This document shows positions 13,448 to 60,728 of a DNA stretch of 64,000 nt, piece after piece. Within the stretch, counting starts at the first letter, position 1, and each line of letters begins with the position of its first letter. A program made the position numbers and the translations under genes. The stretch is from Vibrio tubiashii ATCC 19109 (GTDB taxonomy: Bacteria; Pseudomonadota; Gammaproteobacteria; Enterobacterales; Vibrionaceae), in assembly GCF_000772105.1 (NCBI RefSeq), contig NZ_CP009354.1, positions 2,976,001-3,040,000 of the forward strand, in the 5' to 3' direction. The notes under the pieces were generated by a model. That model was not told the origin of the DNA and made no database searches. It saw only the letters and a program-made list of their open reading frames with translations.

Positions 13448-14233
13448 TCAGCTAGATAGCTTAATCTCATCCAGCGTATATTCAATCAATTGTCGAGCAA
13501 TGGTTCCGGTTGGAGCAACGGGCGGCAACTCTTCGATCCCAAACCAGCGCGCGTCGCTAAGCTCACTGTAATCGGGTTTTAGCTCACCCGATTGATAGTC
13601 GGCGACAAAGCCCATCATCATGCTCGACGGAAATGCCCAAGGCTGACTGCCAAAGTAACGAATGTTGGTCACCGCTATTCCGGTTTCTTCCTTGACCTCA
13701 CGAGCAACGCACTGCTCTAAAGTCTCACCGACTTCGAGGAAACCCGCGATGACGGTGTACATCCCATTACGATGCCTTGGATGTTGCGCTAGTAAGATTT
13801 GCTGCTTGTTACGCACAGCCACAATGATACAAGGGAAGATACGCGGATAATGTAAGGTTCGGCAATCACCACACTGCATGGCTAATTGATTGTGATTGAG
13901 ATGATTTCGACCACCACACTGAGGGCAAAAGCGTAGACTTTGACTCATATGTCCGTACTGAATTGCCTTACTCATCAACAGAAATAGCGGCTCTGGAAAA
14001 TGCAAACAATCACGCAAAGAGGTCAGCTCAAGCTCCTCAGACACATCCGCTTCATTAAGCCACATCAGCGGGTAATTCTCCCATCTTCCGACTTCAATTG
14101 CCTGCTCATAGGGTAAGTTTAAACTCTCAGCACTTCCCTTAGGCAACTGGCCGTTTTGCAGCCAAATATCACTTCCTGATACAACACACCAATAAGCATT
14201 CTTCGTACGGTTTGTGTCACTTTTATTCAACAT
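13448..14233 (-). CDS. nudC: NAD+ diphosphatase NudC (mRNA decapping hydrolase)
   Basis: Nudix hydrolase that cleaves NADH/NAD+ and, in E. coli, removes NAD caps from RNA. The 261 residues hold a zinc ribbon (C103, C106, C121, C124), the Nudix box GX5EX7REUXEEXGU at about 164-186 ([11 protein letters not shown]...REVKEETGI), and the NADH-specific SQPWAFPSS motif at 196-204. The combination of zinc ribbon and SQPW motif distinguishes it from other Nudix proteins. The extreme N-terminus differs from E. coli, so the start is less sure than the rest. It is divergent from rsd. Confidence 0.94.
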
Positions 14234-14377
14234 TGACTCACCTCTTCGCTTGCAGTTCGTCTATTTTACTGGCAATCTAAATTCATACCAGAGTTTGTAG
14301 TCAGTCAATTTTGAGACTATAAATTCTAGTAAGGACAAGAGGTTGTACTCTGTACGTGCTTTGGGAGTCAAAGCGTA

Positions 14378-14410
14378 ATGATCACCGGAGAAGTGATCCG
14401 ATCATGAGGA
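14378..14410 (+). promoter_or_regulatory. Alternative hairpins in the rsd leader
   Basis: GATCAC (14380-14385) can pair with GTGATC (14393-14398), or ATGATC (14378-14383) can pair with GATCAT (14400-14405). The two structures exclude each other, and the second abuts the ribosome site GAGGA (14406-14410). This is structure seen in the sequence; a regulatory role is inference. Confidence 0.35.
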
Positions 14411-14417
14411 TATGGTC

Positions 14418-14906
14418 ATGCTGAATAAATTCAAACAAACACAAGAACAATGGGGTGGCTCAAGCGAAGTCATCGACCACTGGCTCGAAACAAGACAATC
14501 ATTGATTGTCGAATATTGTCAGCTGGGCTCCCTTCAACCTGCAAACGGCCACTCTAACGTCGTCGAACTTCCTTCCCCAAAACAGATCAGTTCATTCTGC
14601 GATCATGTAGTTGATTACATTTCTGAAGGCCATTTCAAAATCTACGATATGGTGATGAAGAAATGGCAAGCAACGGGTTTTAAGACTAACAACGAAATCG
14701 ACGCGACCTATGCCAAGATCGTCTTAACCACAGAACCTTTGCTTGAGTTCAACGATAAGTATGTCAGCGTTAGTGCAGATGATGAGCTACCCAGCTTTGA
14801 AGCAGATATGTCAAAAGTGGGCGAACTACTCGAAGTGCGCTTTGAAGTGGAAGATCAGTTGATTCAACTTATCGCAGATAGCTTGGCGATTCCGCCTGGG
14901 GCATAA
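14418..14906 (+). CDS. rsd: Regulator of sigma D (anti-sigma-70) Rsd
   Basis: Helical protein of 162 residues that binds sigma-70 region 4 and in E. coli also HPr and SpoT. The N-terminus MLNKFKQTQEQWGGSSEVIDHWL aligns with the E. coli start MLNQLDNLTERVRGSNKLVDRWL. That and the GAGGA at 14406-14410 favour ATG 14418 over ATG 14412, which would be only 1 nt from the ribosome site. It is divergent from nudC, the usual neighbour, and convergent with rpoC, the gene for its target enzyme's beta-prime subunit, with a large repeat element between. Confidence 0.92.
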   Translation: MLNKFKQTQEQWGGSSEVIDHWLETRQSLIVEYCQLGSLQPANGHSNVVELPSPKQISSFCDHVVDYISEGHFKIYDMVMKKWQATGFKTNNEIDATYAKIVLTTEPLLEFNDKYVSVSADDELPSFEADMSKVGELLEVRFEVEDQLIQLIADSLAIPPGA

Positions 14907-14907
14907 A

Positions 14908-14931
14908 AGCTAGAGAGCTAGAGAGCTAGAG
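14908..14931. repeat. Three copies of an 8-bp unit AGCTAGAG
   Basis: Three exact tandem octamers starting right after the rsd stop. The unit differs by one base from the GGAGAGCT/AGCTGGAG unit of the array at 30578-30671, so it belongs to the same repeat family. Confidence 0.85.
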
Positions 14932-14940
14932 AATCTTGAA

Positions 14941-14967
14941 GGGTTGGCGTTTTGCGTCGACCCTTTT
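14941..14967 (+). terminator. Terminator after rsd, embedded in repeat element
   Basis: GGGTTGGCG pairs with CGTCGACCC (two G-U pairs) around TTTTG, followed by TTTT. Nearly the same hairpin, with CGTCAACCC, is found after coaA at 30678-30705, so the terminator seems to be a module of the repeat family. Confidence 0.8.
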
Positions 14968-14973
14968 GCGTTT

Positions 14974-15118
14974 TGGATAACTGGATAACTGGATAACTGG
15001 ATAACTGGATAACTGGATAACTGGATAACTGGATAACTGGATAACTGGATAACTGGATAACTGGATAACTGGATAACTGGATAACTGGATAACTGGATAA
15101 CTGGATAACTGGATAACT
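14974..15118. repeat. Octanucleotide tandem array CTGGATAA, about 18 copies
   Basis: Seventeen exact copies of CTGGATAA from 14981 to 15116, preceded by a 7-base partial copy. No interruption or variant unit is present. The array ends in GGATAACTAACGT, the same edge as the array at 46489-46552 (GGATAACTAACTT), so the right border is defined. The unit length is not a multiple of three and any reading frame through it is low-complexity; it lies between the convergent genes rsd and rpoC. Confidence 0.97.
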
Positions 15119-15162
15119 AACGTTGCTCTGTAGTGGATGAGGAGTCAACTCTCTTTCCACAA

Positions 15163-15317
15163 GGGCGAAGCCCGATCCAGTTCTCTAGCAGCGAAGCGAT
15201 CCATAGGACGAAGTCCGTTCTAAAATCTCGAAGGACGAAGTCCGGTCTCGATTCTCGGAACGCAGTGTTCTCGTAGGGCGAAGCCCGATCCCGTTTTCCA
15301 TAGGACGAAGTCCGTTC
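15163..15317. repeat. Cluster of GAA-triloop mini-hairpins, copy 1
   Basis: Seven small hairpins in one orientation: GGGCGAAGCCC (15163-15173), GCGAAGC (15191-15197), GGACGAAGTCC (15206-15216 and 15233-15243), GAACGCAGTGTTC (15258-15270), GGGCGAAGCCC (15276-15286) and GGACGAAGTCC (15303-15313). Most have a GAA loop closed by C-G, and stems change in a compensatory way. The longer context CCATAGGACGAAGTCCGTTC is repeated exactly at 15201-15220 and 15298-15317. The rest of the 478-bp gap between rsd and rpoC holds only the octamer arrays and two terminators. Confidence 0.93.
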
Positions 15318-15343
15318 CCGCCTCCCGCTCTCCAAAAACAAAA

Positions 15344-15363
15344 AAGGCACCCGAAGGTGCCTT
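15344..15363 (-). terminator. Terminator after rpoC
   Basis: AAGGCACC / GGTGCCTT with CGAA loop (TTCG on the transcribed minus strand), followed on that strand by TTTTTTGTTTTT. It ends the rplJ-rplL-rpoB-rpoC transcript. Confidence 0.93.
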
Positions 15364-15384
15364 TTGTCATTTCTTAGCTAGCGA

Positions 15385-18300
15385 TTACTCGTCTGCAGAG
15401 AAACCTGCGTTTAGTAGCGCTGCAAGGTTGTCAGTCGCTTGTTCAGCTGAAGGACCTTCTTGCTCTTCTACACGCTTAGCTTGACGATCTTGGTGGTAAG
15501 CGAAACCTGTACCTGCTGGGATTAGACGACCAACAATTACGTTTTCTTTCAGACCACGTAGCTCATCACGCTTACCAGAAACCGCAGCTTCTGTTAGTAC
15601 GCGAGTTGTTTCCTGGAATGATGCCGCAGAGATGAACGATTCAGTCGCTAGAGATGCCTTAGTAATACCAAGTAGCTCACGCTCGAAACGAACTAGCTCT
15701 TTGCCTTCAGCTTCTAGCTGACGGTTAGCAATCTTAACGTTCGCGTATTCAACCTGCTCACCCACTAGGAACTCTGTAGAGTCACCAGCGTGCGTGATTG
15801 TACACTTACGTAGCATCTGACGAACGATAGTTTCGATGTGCTTATCGTTAATCTTAACGCCTTGTAGACGGTATACTTCTTGAACTTCGTTCGCGATGTA
15901 TTGAGTCACAGCGTGGATACCACGTAGACGTAGAATGTCATGTGGAGACTCTGGACCATCTGCGATCACGTCACCACGTTCAACTTTCTCGCCTTCGAAT
16001 ACGTTAAGCTGACGATGCTTAGGAATCATCTCTTCGTAAGCGTCACCGCCTTCACGAGTGATTACTAGACGACGCTTACCTTTCGTTTCTTTACCGAAGC
16101 TTACAGTACCTGTGTGCTCAGCAAGAATCGCAGGCTCTTTCGGCTTACGAGCTTCGAATAGGTCAGCTACGCGTGGTAGACCACCGGTGATATCTTTGTT
16201 ACCGCCAGATTTCTGAGGGATACGAGATAGAGTATCACCCACGCCTACTTCAGCGCCGTCTTCGATGTTTACAATCGCTTTACCAGGTAGGAAGTAGTGA
16301 GCTGGCATTTCAGTACCAGGGATCATTACGTCGTTACCTTGCGCATCAACAAGTTTGATAGCTGGACGCATATCTTTACCTGCTGCTGGGCGAGCTGCTG
16401 CTTCAGTTACTTCGCTTGAAGATAGACCTGTTAGGTCATCTGTTTGACGAGAAACTGTAACGCCATCGATCATGTCCACAAACTGGATGCGACCTGCCAC
16501 TTCAGTGATGATTGGCATAGTGTGCGCTTCCCAGTTCGCTACTGTTTCACCAGCTTCAACTGCGTCGTTGTCGCCTTTAGATAGTAGAGAACCGTAAGGT
16601 AGTTTGTGTTTCTCTTTAGTACGACCAAATTCGTCGATGATAGTCAGCTCTGAAGCACGAGAAGTGATTACAAGCTTCTTATCTTTGTTGATAACGAATT
16701 TAGCGTTGTGTAGCTTAACTGTACCAGTCGTCTTAGCTTGGATGCTGTTCTCTGCTGCTGCAGTAGATGCCGCACCACCGATGTGGAACGTACGCATCGT
16801 AAGCTGTGTACCCGGCTCACCGATAGACTGAGCAGCGATAACGCCCACTGCTTCACCTTGGTTCACTAGGTGACCACGTGCTAGGTCACGACCGTAACAC
16901 TGAGCACAACAACCGAAGTCTGCATCACAGGTAACTACAGAGCGCACTTTCATGCGGTCAACTGAGTTCTCTTCCATGATCTGACACCACTTCTCATCAA
17001 TTAGAGTGTTACGTGGGATCAGTACATCTTCAGTACCTGGCTTCAGTACGTCTTCTGCAACTACACGACCAAGAGCCAGCTCAGAAAGTGCAACTTTAAC
17101 GTCACCACCTTCGATGTGCGGCATCATGTCAACACCTTCATGGGTGCCACAGTCATGCTCGTGTACAACAACGTCTTGAGCAACGTCTACTAGACGACGA
17201 GTTAGGTAACCCGAGTTCGCTGTTTTCAGTGCTGTATCCGCAAGACCCTTACGAGCACCGTGCGTTGAGATAAAGTACTGAAGTACGTTTAGACCTTCTT
17301 TAAAGTTCGCAGTGATCGGCGTTTCGATGATCGAACCATCTGGACGCGCCATCAGACCACGCATACCTGCAAGCTGACGAATCTGAGCTGCAGAACCACG
17401 TGCGCCCGAGTCGGCCATCATGTAGATGCTGTTGAATGATTCTTGCTGCTCTTCTTCACCGTCGCGGTTAACAACAGTTTCAGAAGATAGGTTTTCCATC
17501 ATCAACTTAGCTACGCGATCGTTGGTCGATGCCCAAATATCGATCACTTTGTTGTAGCGCTCACCCGCAGTTACAAGACCAGATTGGTACTGCTCTTGGA
17601 TTTCGCGAACTTCTGCTTCCGCTTCTTCGATCTCAGTGTACTTAGCTGCTGGAACAACCATGTCGTCGATACCAACAGATACACCAGAAAGTGCCGCGTA
17701 AGCGAAACCTGTGTACATGATTTGGTCAGCGAAGATTACAGTGTCTTTTAGACCTAGCTTACGGTAAGCCTCGTTAAGTAGGTGAGAGATCTGCTTCTTA
17801 CCTAGCTTTTGGTTAACGATGCTGTATGGAAGACCTGCTGGCACGATTTGCCATAGCATTGCACGACCGATAGTTGTATCAACCATCTTAGTCTCAGTTG
17901 TGCTGTTGCCATCTTCGTCTTTAACAGTCTCAGTGATACGAACTTTAACGCGAGCGTGTAGCTCAGCAGTCTTAGTACGGTATGCCTTCTCAGCCTCAGC
18001 TGGGCTAGCAAGGTACATACCTTCGCCTTTCACGTTGATCTTGTCACGAGTCATGTAGTAAAGACCCAATACAACGTCCTGTGAAGGTACGATGATCGGA
18101 TCACCTGACGCTGGCGACAGAATGTTGTTTGTCGACATCATCAGAGTACGAGCTTCAAGCTGTGCTTCTAGAGTTAGAGGCACGTGTACCGCCATTTGGT
18201 CACCATCGAAGTCCGCGTTGTACGCCGCACACACAAGTGGGTGTAACTGAATTGCTTTACCTTCGATTAGTACTGGTTCGAACGCCTGGATACCTAGACG

Positions 18301-30559: not shown

Positions 30560-30579
30560 GAGCGGGCTTCGCCCTACGG
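30560..30579. repeat. Inverted mini-hairpin at left edge of repeat copy 2
   Basis: GAGCGGGCTTCGCCCTACGG; the core GGGCTTCGCCC (30564-30574) is the reverse complement of the GGGCGAAGCCC hairpins. The sequence runs directly into the octamer array through ACGGAGAGCTGG, the same junction as at 46481. Confidence 0.85.
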
Positions 30580-30671
30580 AGAGCTGGAGAGCTGGAGAGC
30601 TGGAGAGCTGGAGAGCTGGAGAGCTGGAGAGCTGGAGAGCTGGAGAGCTGGAGAGCTGGAGAGCTGGAGAG
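30578..30671. repeat. Octanucleotide tandem array GGAGAGCT, 11.75 copies
   Basis: Eleven exact units from 30578 to 30665 plus six bases. The unit differs from GGATAACT (the other two arrays) at positions 4 and 6 only. It begins 45 bp after the coaA stop. A relic of the other unit (AACTGGATAAGCTGG) follows at about 30749-30763. The 341-bp gap between coaA and the DUF805 gene holds only this composite repeat and the terminator. Confidence 0.96.
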
Positions 30672-30677
30672 TGTTTA

Positions 30678-30705
30678 GGGTTGGCGGATAAACGTCAACC
30701 CTTTT
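30678..30705 (+). terminator. Terminator after coaA, embedded in repeat element
   Basis: GGGTTGGCG / CGTCAACCC with GATAAA loop and TTTT. Near-identical to the hairpin after rsd (14941-14967), including the flanking AGGGTTGGCG and CCCTTTT. Confidence 0.85.
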
Positions 30706-30787
30706 CGTATGGAACGCCTTGCTACGGAAACGGGATGCGGGATACAAATAACTGGATAAGCTGGCTTGTCAGACTAGTTTTCCAGCA

Positions 30788-30874
30788 GCGAAGCGATCCA
30801 TAGGGCGCAGCCCGTTCTCGCATCTCGGCGCGAAGCGTTCCCGAGGACGAAGTCCTTTCATAACGCGAAGCGTT
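30788..30874. repeat. Cluster of GAA-type mini-hairpins, copy 2
   Basis: GCGAAGC (30788-30794), GGGCGCAGCCC (30803-30813, in CCATAGGGCGCAGCCCGTTC), CGCGAAGCG (30829-30837), GGACGAAGTCC (30845-30855) and AACGCGAAGCGTT (30862-30874). Stem sequences differ between hairpins but pairing is kept. The last hairpin touches the TAG stop of the DUF805 gene (30875-30877). Confidence 0.92.
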
Positions 30875-31303
30875 CTATCTCCCTTCCGGCCCATATTGAT
30901 TTTCGCCATCCGTGCCTTTTAAGAAACCACATTCAACTAAAATCCATAGACCACAGACTAGAGCAGCAAATGACGTCGCGGCTTGCAACATAGACGGTTG
31001 ACCGGCTAGTGAAGGATCACCGACTGGCACTGTCATTCGTCCAATAACAAGTGGGATGTTAAGCAGCAGCCACCAACTTGATTTACCACGGTCATGCCAA
31101 CGTTTAGCGGTAATCGCTAGATCAGGAACCAGAATGACAATCAGAAACACAGGTAGAATCAGATGTGCGATCGAGGGAGCGAGTACATTCATCCCCATCG
31201 CAAAGCCAACAATCATCAAATAGTAAACCACGTTCCAAATCCAATAGGTTTTACGCCCTATTCGACCTTGAAACGAAAACAGTAAATCTTTCATCGACAT
31301 CAT
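30875..31303 (-). CDS. DUF805 membrane protein
   Basis: Small inner-membrane protein of 142 residues with four predicted helices. The family hallmark is an N-terminal segment FQGRIGRKTYW followed by a helix, a central LAITAKRWHDRGKSSWWLLL and a C-terminal KGTDGENQYGP; all three are visible. Function of DUF805 proteins is unknown. Start ATG 31303 or the adjacent ATG 31300 follow AGGT. The stop codon coincides with the edge of the repeat element, so the last residues may be shaped by repeat insertion. Confidence 0.85.
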   Translation of the reverse strand: MMSMKDLLFSFQGRIGRKTYWIWNVVYYLMIVGFAMGMNVLAPSIAHLILPVFLIVILVPDLAITAKRWHDRGKSSWWLLLNIPLVIGRMTVPVGDPSLAGQPSMLQAATSFAALVCGLWILVECGFLKGTDGENQYGPEGR

Positions 31304-31967: not shown

Positions 31968-32738
31968 ATGCGTCGTCCTGTAGTGATGGGTAACTGGAAG
32001 CTTAACGGCAGCAAAGCAATGGTGAAAGAGCTGCTAACTGGTCTTAACGCTGAACTTGAAGGCGTTGAAGGTGTTGACGTAGCTGTCGCTCCACCAGCAC
32101 TTTACCTAGATCTAGCTGAACAGCTAATCGCAAAAGGCGGTAACAAGATCATCCTAGGTGCTCAAAACACTGACCTAAACAACAGCGGTGCATTCACTGG
32201 TGATATGTCTCCAGAGATGCTAAAAGATTTCGGTGCTACTCACATCATCATCGGTCACTCTGAGCGTCGTGAATACCACAACGAATCTGACGAGTTCATC
32301 GCTAAGAAATTCAACTTCCTAAAAGAGAACGGCCTAAAACCTGTTTTCTGTATCGGTGAATCTGAAGCTCAAAACGAAGCAGGCGAAACTGAAGCAGTAT
32401 GTGCACGTCAAATCAATGCAGTTATCGACGCTTACGGTGTTGAAGCGCTAAACGGTGCAATCATCGCATACGAACCAATCTGGGCTATCGGTACTGGTAA
32501 AGCAGCAACAGCTGAAGATGCACAACGCATCCACGCTTCTATCCGTGCGCTAATCGCTGAGAAAGATGCAGCAGTTGCTGAGCAAGTAATCATCCAATAC
32601 GGTGGTTCTGTTAAGCCTGAAAACGCAGAAGCTTACTTCTCACAGCCAGACATCGACGGTGCTCTAGTTGGTGGTGCATCTCTAGATGCTAAGAGCTTCG
32701 CAGCAATTGCTAAAGCTGCGGCAGCAGCTAAAGCATAA
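31968..32738 (+). CDS. tpiA: Triosephosphate isomerase
   Basis: Glycolytic (beta/alpha)8 enzyme interconverting DHAP and glyceraldehyde-3-phosphate; 256 residues. Catalytic residues are seen in GNWKLNG (Lys), IIGHSERR (His) and [11 protein letters not shown] (Glu), and the phosphate loop in [12 protein letters not shown] 31968 follows GGAGA by 7 nt. Codon bias is strong. A terminator lies 32 bp after the stop. Confidence 0.98.
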
Positions 32739-46464: not shown

Positions 46465-46484
46465 GAACGGACTTCGTCCTACGG
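46465..46484. repeat. Inverted mini-hairpin at left edge of repeat copy 3
   Basis: GAACGGACTTCGTCCTACGG, core GGACTTCGTCC (46469-46479). It is the reverse complement, with one mismatch, of the CCATAGGACGAAGTCCGTTC unit found at 15201-15220 and 15298-15317. Confidence 0.88.
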
Positions 46485-46554
46485 AGAGCTGGATAACTGG
46501 ATAACTGGATAACTGGATAACTGGATAACTGGATAACTGGATAACTGGATAACT
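46483..46554. repeat. Octanucleotide tandem array GGATAACT, 8 copies, with one GGAGAGCT unit
   Basis: Eight exact CTGGATAA units (46489-46552) start in phase after one unit of the other type, GGAGAGCT (46483-46490). This single hybrid unit links the two octamer versions. The right edge GGATAACTAACTT matches that of the first array. The 366-bp gap between trmL and trpS otherwise holds mini-hairpins and one terminator. Confidence 0.96.
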
Positions 46555-46625
46555 AACTTAGCGTTTTTCAACAACCCTAAAGTATCAACGGTTTGTTTTG
46601 ATAATGCTCAATCTCGCTTTCCCTA

Positions 46626-46773
46626 AGCAAAGCGTTCCATAGGGCGTAGCCCGTTCCGTTATCCCAAAGTAAAGCATTTCAAATCGTTCAAAAAAGCCGA
46701 TGCTATTGCATCGGCTTTTACAACTCTAGCTATCTAGTTTTCTAGTAGCGCAGCGTTCCATAGGACGAAGTCC
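46626..46773. repeat. Mini-hairpins of repeat copy 3
   Basis: Two units: AGCAAAGCGTTCCATAGGGC with GGGCGTAGCCC at 46642-46652, and GTAGCGCAGCGTTCCATAGG with GGACGAAGTCC at 46763-46773. They lie on either side of a bidirectional terminator. Loops vary (GTA, GAA) while stems still pair. Confidence 0.88.
46692..46719. terminator. Bidirectional terminator between trmL and trpS
   Basis: Perfect 12-bp stem AAAAGCCGATGC / GCATCGGCTTTT with TATT loop, A run on one side and T run on the other. Serves trpS on the minus strand and any + strand transcript from trmL. Confidence 0.92.
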
Positions 46774-58208: not shown

Positions 58209-60728
58209 GTGAAGTTCATAAAGCGACTACTTATATTCACATTGATTTGCATAATTCTTGGGGTCGGTACGATATTCGGCTTCTACTTGTATGTGAAGCC
58301 AGAGCTACCAGACGTAGCCACATTGAAAGACGTAAAACTGCAAACTCCAATGCAGGTGTTTAGCCAAGACGGTAAACTGATCTCCCAGTTTGGTGAGAAA
58401 CGTCGTATCCCCGTTGCTTATGACGATATTCCACAGCATCTGATCGAGGCGCTAATTGCAACAGAAGATAGCCGCTTTTACGATCACCCAGGTATCGACC
58501 CGATCGGTATCACTCGTGCGGCCGTAGTGGTTGCTCTTTCAGGCTCGGCCAAGCAAGGTGCAAGTACCATTACTCAGCAGCTAGCTCGTAACTTCTTCCT
58601 TTCCAATGAAAAGAAGATCATGCGAAAAATCAAAGAGATCTTTATTGCTATCCATATAGAACAACTTCTTAGTAAAGAAGAGATCATGGAGTTATACGTC
58701 AATAAGATCTTCTTAGGCTATCGCTCTTATGGCTTTGGTGCCGCAGCGCAAACCTATTTTGGTAAAGAGCTTCAAAACCTCACACTCAGTGAAATCGCGA
58801 CGCTTGCCGGCATGCCAAAAGCGCCTTCAACCATGAACCCTATTTACTCACTCGAACGTGCGACGAACCGTCGTAATGTCGTGCTACTGCGTATGCTTGA
58901 CGAGAAATACATAACTCAGGCGGAGTATGATGAGGCTCGTGGTGAAGAGATCGTTGCTCGCTATCATGGTGCAGAAATTGAGTTAAGTGCTCCATACGTT
59001 GCAGAGCTAGCTCGAGCTTGGATGGTTGCTCGCTATGGTCAGGAAGAAGCGTACACTTCAGGTATGAACATCTACACCACCGTAGATTCAAAGCTTCAAG
59101 CAGCCGCAAACAAATCGGCAATCAACAACTTGCTGGCTTACGATGAGCGTCACGGCTACCGCGGTGCAGAAAAGGTTCTCTGGCAGCCAGGCAAACCAGC
59201 CCTTGATGAGCAGAAAATAGATAAAACGCTCGATAACGTTCCAACTTATGGTCAGCTCGTTCCTGCTGTTGTCACTAAGGTAGATAGCAAACAAGCAACC
59301 ATTTGGGTTAAGGACCAAGGGATCAACACGTTAGAGTGGGATGGCATCAAGTGGGCACGTAAATTCCTGACTGATGATCGCCAGGGCCCACCACCAAGCA
59401 ATGCCAAAGATGTCTTAGCTGAAGGTGAGCAAATTTGGGTGCGTGAAGTTGAAAGCACAGTTGAAGGCCAAGAGCCAACCATCGCTTGGCACCTAAGCCA
59501 AGTACCGAATGCGAACACCGCATTTGTTGCCATGAACCCTGAAAATGGCGCGGTCTTGTCTTTAGTTGGTGGTTTTAACTTTGTTCATAACAAGTTTAAC
59601 CGTGCCACTCAGTCAGTACGTCAAGTTGGTTCAAGTATTAAACCCTTTATTTATGCCGCAGCAATCGATAAGGGGCTAACACTCGCGACCCTGATCAATG
59701 ACGCTCCGATTAACCAATGGGATAAGAGTCAAGGTACAGCTTGGCGACCAAAGAACTCGCCACCAACTTACATTGGCCCTACTCGCTTACGTATTGGTTT
59801 AGCACAATCGAAGAACGTGATGGCTGTGCGCGTGTTACGTGAAGTCGGCCTTGATGAAACGCGCCAATACTTAACACGCTTTGGTTTCGATATAGACCAA
59901 GTGCCGCGTTCAGAAACCATTGCTCTTGGAGCGGGTAGCTTAACACCAATGAAAATGGCTCAAGGCTACTCAGTGTTTGCGAATGGTGGTTACTATGTAG
60001 AACCCTTCTATATCAGCCGGGTAGAAGGCCCATTTGGTGACCTAGAATTCGAAGCATCACCAAAAGTCGTCTGTCATCAAGACTGTACTCAAGCTGTCAC
60101 GAGTGACAATGAATTTGCCGAGCAAGATGTGACAACTGAAGTCACTGAAGAGCCTCAATATGCTCCACAAGTGATCTCAGAGCAAACTGCATTCTTGATG
60201 CGCGAAATGATGTACAGCAATGTCTGGGGTGGCGGTAACTGGCGTGACGGTACAGGTTGGAACGGTACCGGTTGGCGCGCTCAGAAGCTACAACGTCGCG
60301 ACATTGGTGGTAAAACCGGTACTACTAACGACTCTAAAGATGCTTGGTATAACGGTTATGGCCCAGGAATGGTCGCTATCGCTTGGGTCGGTTTCGATGA
60401 TCACACGCGTAAGCTAGGCCGAACCAAAACGAACAGTAATCTCGGCAAAGATCAGATTACCGGTGCTGAAGCAGGGGCAAAAACAGCTCAACCGGCATGG
60501 GTCGACTTTATGCGTACAGCGCTAGCAGGAGTTCCTCAGCAAAGCAAAACGATTCCGCAAAATATAGTACGAGTTCGAATTGATCGAGACTCTGGTCTCT
60601 TGACCAATAAGTTCGACTCTAGCTCTATGTTTGAATACTTCTTAGAAGGTACTGAACCTACCGAGTACGTCACCAGTGAGATTACTGACAGTATCTACAC
60701 TTCTGATGGTGGCGAAGAGCTGTTCTAA
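58209..60728 (+). CDS. mrcA: Penicillin-binding protein 1A
   Basis: Bifunctional peptidoglycan synthase of 839 residues. One TM helix (about 5-28), glycosyltransferase domain GT51 with catalytic Glu in ATEDSRFYDHPGID (E86), an OB-like domain, and a transpeptidase with SxxK at S475 (GSSIKPF), SKN in AQSKNVMAV and KTGTT at 702-706. Start is GTG 58209, preceded by AGGGA. Family name PBP1A follows from the OB domain insert and gene position beside pilM. Confidence 0.95.
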   Translation: MKFIKRLLIFTLICIILGVGTIFGFYLYVKPELPDVATLKDVKLQTPMQVFSQDGKLISQFGEKRRIPVAYDDIPQHLIEALIATEDSRFYDHPGIDPIGITRAAVVVALSGSAKQGASTITQQLARNFFLSNEKKIMRKIKEIFIAIHIEQLLSKEEIMELYVNKIFLGYRSYGFGAAAQTYFGKELQNLTLSEIATLAGMPKAPSTMNPIYSLERATNRRNVVLLRMLDEKYITQAEYDEARGEEIVARYHGAEIELSAPYVAELARAWMVARYGQEEAYTSGMNIYTTVDSKLQAAANKSAINNLLAYDERHGYRGAEKVLWQPGKPALDEQKIDKTLDNVPTYGQLVPAVVTKVDSKQATIWVKDQGINTLEWDGIKWARKFLTDDRQGPPPSNAKDVLAEGEQIWVREVESTVEGQEPTIAWHLSQVPNANTAFVAMNPENGAVLSLVGGFNFVHNKFNRATQSVRQVGSSIKPFIYAAAIDKGLTLATLINDAPINQWDKSQGTAWRPKNSPPTYIGPTRLRIGLAQSKNVMAVRVLREVGLDETRQYLTRFGFDIDQVPRSETIALGAGSLTPMKMAQGYSVFANGGYYVEPFYISRVEGPFGDLEFEASPKVVCHQDCTQAVTSDNEFAEQDVTTEVTEEPQYAPQVISEQTAFLMREMMYSNVWGGGNWRDGTGWNGTGWRAQKLQRRDIGGKTGTTNDSKDAWYNGYGPGMVAIAWVGFDDHTRKLGRTKTNSNLGKDQITGAEAGAKTAQPAWVDFMRTALAGVPQQSKTIPQNIVRVRIDRDSGLLTNKFDSSSMFEYFLEGTEPTEYVTSEITDSIYTSDGGEELF

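Follow-up and report, generated by a model that had tools for sequence, protein, structure and literature searches.

A family of octamer arrays on chromosome 1 of Vibrio tubiashii whose orientation follows the replichore

The convergent genes rsd (plus strand) and rpoC (minus strand) of Vibrio tubiashii ATCC 19109 are separated by an intergenic space of 478 bp, from the rsd stop codon (14906) to that of rpoC (15385), which holds tandem octamers and small hairpins and so raises the question of what kind of repeat this is and how such uniform arrays are made and kept. The locus lies in the 64,000-nucleotide stretch of DNA that we analysed (the window), corresponding to positions 2976001–3040000 of chromosome 1 (C1; 3,294,490 bp). 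Read 5' to 3', the gap contains array A, a terminator-like stem, array B, a module termed S and then seven mini-hairpins, followed by the probable terminator of rpoC, with the following window positions:

14908..14932, plus strand: array A, AGCTAGAG x 3.1, unit RGAGAGCT, immediately after the rsd stop codon (TRF)
14940..14974, plus strand: likely rsd terminator, stem GGGTTGGCG..CGTCGACCC with a T tract (sequence; comparable terminators in relatives)
14974..15118, plus strand: array B, 18.1 copies of GGATAACT (TGGATAAC), 100% identical (TRF)
15119..15149, plus strand: S module, GTTGCTCT..AGTCAAC, 3' of array B (family comparison; stem without covariation support)
15162..15314, plus strand: cluster of seven mini-hairpins, loop GAA or GCA, among them GGGCGAAGCCC and GGACGAAGTCC (counted by eye; loops enriched in the family)
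15335..15372, minus strand: likely rpoC terminator, GGCACC..GGTGCC (inverted repeat; conserved in relatives)

Sequence and TRF together confirm the contents given in a first-pass annotation of this DNA (three units, a terminator, about 18 perfect units and seven mini-hairpins), and five of the seven mini-hairpins match the hairpin pattern of the genome count given below. That annotation had also taken the terminator for a module of the repeat. The stem itself is present, since a G+C stem with a T tract, as in an intrinsic terminator, stands at the gene end after array A, but to judge from its sequence it looks like the head-on gene's (rsd) own terminator: L213, L219 and L225, three relatives that have no octamer arrays, carry a similar terminator (GGGTTG-type) at the same site, and other relatives have a different terminator there. 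In this copy the S module showed, at its far foot, no inverted octamer that reached our limit of 7 of 8 letters. Rfam returned, for window positions 14000–16000, two weak matches, both below the gathering threshold. A phage origin was considered and rejected, the sole match being of 49 bases at the rpoC terminator end, in three records.

The same modules recur, as the annotation had stated, at two further places within the 64 kb, and all three copies lie between convergent genes (rsd/rpoC, a panK gene/an unnamed ORF, and a trmL gene/trpS):

30564..30574, minus strand: copy 2, reversed mini-hairpin 5' of the array (sequence)
30578..30671, plus strand: copy 2, array GGAGAGCT x 11.8 (TRF)
30677..30706, plus strand: copy 2, likely terminator GGGTTGGCG..CGTCAACCC (inverted repeat)
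30786..30875, plus strand: copy 2, mini-hairpin cluster (sequence)
46469..46479, minus strand: copy 3, reversed mini-hairpin 5' of the array (sequence)
46489..46554, plus strand: copy 3, array GGATAACT x 8.2 (TRF)
46622..46653, plus strand: copy 3, mini-hairpins (sequence)
46746..46773, plus strand: copy 3, second group of mini-hairpins (sequence)

Two short tandem repeats elsewhere in the window (15 bp, at 60247–60275, and 21 bp, at 32687–32726) are unrelated to the octamer family.

Copy 1 is one member of a repeat family dispersed over C1. Across the genome, a two-unit octamer pattern gave 308 + 328 = 636 matches against 0 + 2 for the reversed control, and a mini-hairpin pattern 59 + 61 = 120 against 0 + 1. 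TRF was applied to 1.03 of the 3.29 Mb of C1 and to parts of chromosome 2 (C2), in stretches chosen around pattern hits, and arrays were defined by a period of 8, at least three copies and at least 90% match, so that only period-8 rows enter the main count. By this definition there are 77 arrays, seven on C2 and 70 on C1 at 63 loci, all of them variants of one unit (GGATAACT 20, GGAGAGCT 20, GGAGAACT 12, AGAGAGCT 9, others 16), and the suggestion in the annotation that the modules form a repeat family is therefore upheld. One of the 77 runs into the end of a long ORF (25 of 132 bp), and the remaining 76 overlap no ORF that has 150 codons outside the array. We found no description of this octamer-array and hairpin family in the literature searched; five of the unit sequences turned up in two papers, which by their titles have nothing to do with it. 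A second dispersed repeat of about 110–130 bp (GTCATCCTCAAGAGCGAGG...GGGAATGACG), possibly a MITE, occurs at C1 2495300, 308400 and 843200 and at L074 and L242; by eye, it often lies between terminator and hairpins and is present in several Vibrio species.

The list of arrays derived from pattern matches proved incomplete, since five of seven hairpin clusters first taken as array-free do hold arrays, and we therefore added a systematic sample of 20 stretches of 20 kb (400 kb) of C1 outside the terminus gap that is described below. This sample contained 14 octamer arrays and one 7-mer array (2517119). Octamer arrays occupied 8/52 convergent, 1/125 tandem and 0/58 divergent gaps, i.e. 8/52 convergent gaps against 1/183 of all others, two of the 14 arrays lying outside any counted gap, probably because a mechanical ORF covers them; when 7-mers were counted too, eight convergent, two tandem and no divergent gaps were occupied (convergent versus the rest, p = 1.1e-4). 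A mini-hairpin was present in 6 of the 10 array-bearing gaps (one with a 7-mer array) and in none of the 225 array-free gaps (p = 1e-9), so that the association of GGAKARCT arrays with hairpins, which the annotation had proposed as a check, holds. Arrays and hairpins occurring independently, or a family of just the three window copies, were the outcomes that it had named beforehand as speaking against it, and the genome and sample counts exclude both.

The arrays are intergenic, lie mostly between convergent gene ends and often stand beside hairpins or terminators. Among 50 arrays that have an upstream head-on gene, 24 begin at most 15 bp from its stop codon, and a terminator-like module, recognized by a simple pattern, follows 31 of the 77. 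Both observations, together with the unstructured opposite strand of the GGATAACT array, fit arrays that act in RNA, either within a 3' UTR or by providing, on the opposite strand, C-rich sites at which Rho loads and prevents read-through. We nevertheless regard such a role as very unlikely, because a transcriptional function does not predict an orientation by replichore.

C1 begins at a presumed dnaA, with mnmG, rsmG and parAB genes near the opposite end (gene names assigned from the translations), and its GC skew is positive at 1.50–1.52 Mb and negative at 1.70–1.72 Mb; from the position of dnaA and the change of sign we infer that oriC lies near position 0 and the terminus between 1.52 and 1.70 Mb. 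Relative to these points, 69 of the 70 C1 arrays have GGAKARCT-like units that read towards the predicted oriC (p = 1.2e-19), with 37/38 on the minus strand to the right of the origin and 32/32 on the plus strand in the left arm. All 14 octamer arrays of the systematic sample read in the same direction, and its 7-mer array at 2517119 faces the opposite way. At the lone C1 exception, 867885, the element is inverted relative to V. europaeus. The 60 rule-following arrays of our first list comprise 41 in convergent gaps, nine between two head-on genes, eight between two co-directional genes and two in divergent gaps. All 41 convergent ones are on the side of the head-on gene, which counts against a role in RNA, as does the near-equality of the tandem gaps (nine versus eight), which contradicts transcription as the cause of the orientation. 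An artefact of base skew is ruled out because the purine-rich unit sits on the G-poor strand, against the GC skew. Array orientation thus follows the replichore and not transcription. The GGTTG-type terminators that lack arrays were also considered, but many of their second readings are the reverse of one bidirectional stem, and their orientation therefore says little.

The rule extends to other vibrios. In V. europaeus 41/42 loci obey it, lying on the C-rich strand by local skew, and so do all 50 of the 50 arrays from Vibrio relatives whose place on C1 could be assigned (three unmapped ones and those mapping to C2 being left out), although most of these 50 are at sites shared by descent and are hence not independent. 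On C2, judged by local skew, four of seven arrays follow the rule. Isolated octamer arrays are present in unrelated genomes too, and GGATAGCT-type octamer arrays are found near C-GNA-G hairpins in three Bacteroidetes assemblies (L036, L055, L097 and other loci), where such hairpins number 16 in 22.4 kb near arrays versus 30 in 294 kb elsewhere. This is a parallel architecture in another phylum; 11/16, 7/11 and 5/15 arrays of the three assemblies point in the rule direction, i.e. they follow no clear rule, and in a fourth Bacteroidetes assembly (two loci) C-GNA-G hairpins are absent both near arrays and elsewhere.

The elements themselves provide an internal control, as the octamer is also present singly, facing the opposite way, within elements that bear an array. 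Within 600 bp of arrays, rule-facing octamers form 23 singles, 4 doubles and 67 arrays, and opposite-facing ones 53 singles, 2 doubles and 1 array (p = 5e-19); for many of the single octamers, orientation is confounded with position inside the element. Single octamers distant from arrays are unbiased (282/585). Most telling are the S modules: here 19 of 29, and in relatives 22 of 26, have an inverted octamer (at least 7 of 8 letters) at their far foot, copy 1 being among the 10 here that lack it. In all 41 such modules the far foot has one copy and the origin-facing near foot 5–19. The S modules were located through their arrays; an array at the wrong foot would show as a wrong-facing one, which was seen once in 70. 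The single far-foot copy and the 69/70 orientation contradict ordinary variable-number tandem repeats unlinked to replication; slippage typically yields perfect arrays that vary in length, and octamer arrays do arise singly in unrelated genomes, yet we consider this explanation of the family scarcely credible.

Our preferred reading, to which we incline a little more than to its negation, is that lagging-strand synthesis slips at hairpins in its template and thereby both generates the octamer arrays and maintains their uniformity. The origin-facing orientation would place the purine-rich unit in the nascent lagging strand. The polymerase would then have copied the octamer immediately before it meets the stem-loop in the single-stranded template. 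Stalled there, with the 3' end still inside the octamer, it may slide back by one unit and so add one, a process to which the mini-hairpins may contribute further stalling. The octamer at the far foot would be copied after the obstacle and hence would not expand. Repeated gain and loss of units could preserve the uniformity of an array and also allow a variant unit to spread through the whole of it. In its wider form the proposal describes a natural, replication-polar minisatellite generator, in which hairpin modules are near-symmetric with the same octamer at both feet, the array grows only at the foot determined by fork direction, and dozens of chromosomal sites thereby register which way lagging-strand synthesis runs; on this we are evenly divided. 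In E. coli the instability of repeats is orientation-dependent, length change depending on which strand is lagging, and this is known to us from plasmid constructs and not as a natural chromosome-wide pattern.

Comparison with related species shows that the units turn over. Flanking DNA is 90–99% identical to V. europaeus loci. Array B has 18 copies here and 15 at the corresponding site of V. europaeus, array A three against about one, and the array at 210503 ten against about 1.6. At 2210548, 529046, 846030 and 115748 the unit differs between the species and the flanks are kept. Six arrays of relatives, at five sites, are found where this genome has none of at least three copies, and all six are oriented according to the rule. 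In the rsd–rpoC gap of two genomes (G206 and G201) a 7-mer array, AGCGAGA x 15, stands between stop codon and terminator, and at L214 a terminator similar to that of rsd follows a 7-mer array. The AGCGAGA 7-mer, found in five of 16 genomes, occurs after a stop codon and in rule orientation at five loci in five genomes, with a terminator next in four of the five and the contig ending at the array in the fifth. G125 (54 + 86 pattern matches), G320 and G201 have the AGCGAGA family alongside the octamer. Copying between loci also happens, to judge from a near copy in V. europaeus (2495134) of the element at 2511677, terminator included, and this suggests that the common unit probably spread among loci by occasional recombination.

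Slippage alone explains neither the presence of one unit family at 63 loci nor the emptiness of the terminus region. No array and, among the 100 of 120 hairpin places listed (up to 2.99 Mb), no hairpin match lies in 844 kb around the terminus (C1 1.27–2.11 Mb), and in 160 kb sampled inside this gap 0/93 intergenic gaps hold an array. If the 63 loci were placed uniformly, the chance of such a gap would be bounded by 6.8e-7, the loci coming from DNA chosen around hits. In G148, a genome resembling V. europaeus, a similar gap extends over C1 0.61–1.50 Mb. These features would suit a polarity under selection, the arrays being a one-directional chromosome signal (for fork pausing, topology, segregation or domain marking) that is kept out of the terminus domain, and the strict polarity and the array sites common to several species point the same way. 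We think this unlikely, however, as shared sites do not keep one and the same unit and may even carry a 7-mer, which would be strange if a protein recognized the sequence, and close relatives are without the element at rsd–rpoC. The orientation is also the reverse of that of Chi and KOPS. These are leading-strand motifs of 8 bp and fixed sequence that point the way the fork travels and are not arranged in tandem arrays; our octamers are likewise 8 bp long and strand-biased by replichore but tandem, and they read towards the predicted oriC, the wrong orientation for a Chi- or KOPS-like function, which we reject.

A mobile origin was also weighed. The family has many intergenic hairpin copies in inverted pairs (120 matches against one in the control; arms inverted), and in this it is like the dispersed intergenic palindromes known as REP, BIME or REPIN (PMC3733652, PMC6006769 and PMC3116915), which often lie between convergent genes (PMC1525189). 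If the element were a miniature transposon of REP/BIME type that a Y1 transposase mobilizes in single-stranded form, a preference of the enzyme for the lagging-strand template could set the orientation; IS608 and ISDra2 are stated to target that template (PMC6006769). The empty sites in relatives, the inverted pairs of mini-hairpins, the preference for convergent gaps and the V. europaeus copy at 2495134 all accord with such movement. The annotation had suggested a search for a RAYT/TnpA_REP-type transposase, but in none of ten genomes was an intact Y1 transposase found, and the two Y1_Tnp matches are fragments, a partial IS200-like frame of 113 aa and a 44-aa frame with a stop. The former belongs to this genome (C1 151432–154647, L031) and lies, by eye, beside sugar-epimerase-like and sugar-transferase-like frames; we saw no array in that 3.2-kb locus. 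Moreover, the GTAG/GTGG tag expected at the 5' foot of REP hairpins is mostly missing: GTA precedes the G in 18 of 107 GGRCGNAGYCC hairpins with known 5' letters (CGTA 16, TGTA 2), CATA (36) and CGAA (15) being other contexts, and as the 5' context of 15 of the 122 hairpins is not included, a GTAG tag is possible in just 18 to 33 of 122. Arrays that precede retained host terminators, and 7-mer arrays, need no insertion, and both orientations of the octamer are present in one element, of which one kind expands. We therefore reject membership of the RAYT-associated REP/BIME class, from which the family also differs in its 4-bp stems, GNA loops and dominant 8-bp arrays, and hold movement by a Y1 transposase to be distinctly improbable. 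Overall, the first-pass reading stands as to the family, the array–hairpin association and, at the level of related species, the variable array length, and is unsupported as to the transposase, and it had missed the orientation rule.

Short tandem arrays are known from other bacteria. The STRR heptamers of cyanobacteria are intergenic short-unit arrays of period 7 with several unit families per genome, and to our knowledge they show neither replichore polarity nor hairpin partners; here period 8 dominates, with 70 TRF rows against three of period 7 in the window and first stretches. The TAACTGA heptamers of Beggiatoaceae, Cyanobacteria and Bacteroidetes are likewise intergenic, and TAACTGA is the octamer TAACTGGA minus one G, but the available part of their description mentions neither a hairpin partner nor a link between orientation and replication, and it places the majority, in the main genome, just upstream of start codons (PMC4679880). 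The octamers are not so placed, their nine gaps in the systematic sample being eight convergent and one tandem, with 0/58 divergent. The family resembles REP/BIME in dispersal and hairpins, and the heptamer repeats in its arrays. For its polarity the nearest published precedent that we have seen is the tandem REP arrays of P. fluorescens SBW25, of which one report gives five in forward orientation near 2 Mb and six in reverse near 4 Mb (PMC3116915).

How well the hairpins and arrays fold bears on the slippage reading. Triloops on 4-bp stems are denser in array zones than elsewhere (GAA 8.7x, GCA 4.4x, GTA 3.0x), and 48 of the 57 GNA loops in array zones are closed by a C-G pair. C-GNA-G forms an unusually stable DNA hairpin, and the motif GCGAAGC is known from the literature. 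Four-base loops are also 2.7x denser in array zones, an excess that we take to reflect array units pairing with one another. As an explanation of the orientation, self-folding of the arrays was discarded: the GGATAACT array does not fold alone, its opposite strand being unstructured too, and for the GGAGAGCT array the two strands each give a weak fold (z −2.6 and −4.2). DNA folding of eight S modules is only moderately better than that of shuffled DNA (mean z −2.1), but their stem showed no covariation and was rejected as a conserved structure. Under standard DNA energies, neither strand of the mini-hairpin cluster of copy 1 gives a better fold than shuffled sequence (z 0.7 and 1.5). Strong stems are slightly commoner 3' of arrays (40/77) than 5' (31/77; p = 0.015). 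Against slippage at template hairpins we count the modesty of this 3' excess, the folding of the cluster, the S stem without covariation, the contrary 7-mer array at 2517119, the empty terminus region and C2, where four of seven arrays follow the rule.

As far as we know, strand-dependent repeat expansion has mostly been studied in engineered constructs; here it would be seen at about 60 natural chromosomal sites, many of which carry a built-in control in the form of the same octamer at the opposite foot. These sites would make it testable how hairpins and lagging-strand synthesis together create and homogenize tandem repeats. The absence of the family from the terminus region raises a separate question, and the arrays could serve as length-variable markers for these vibrios.
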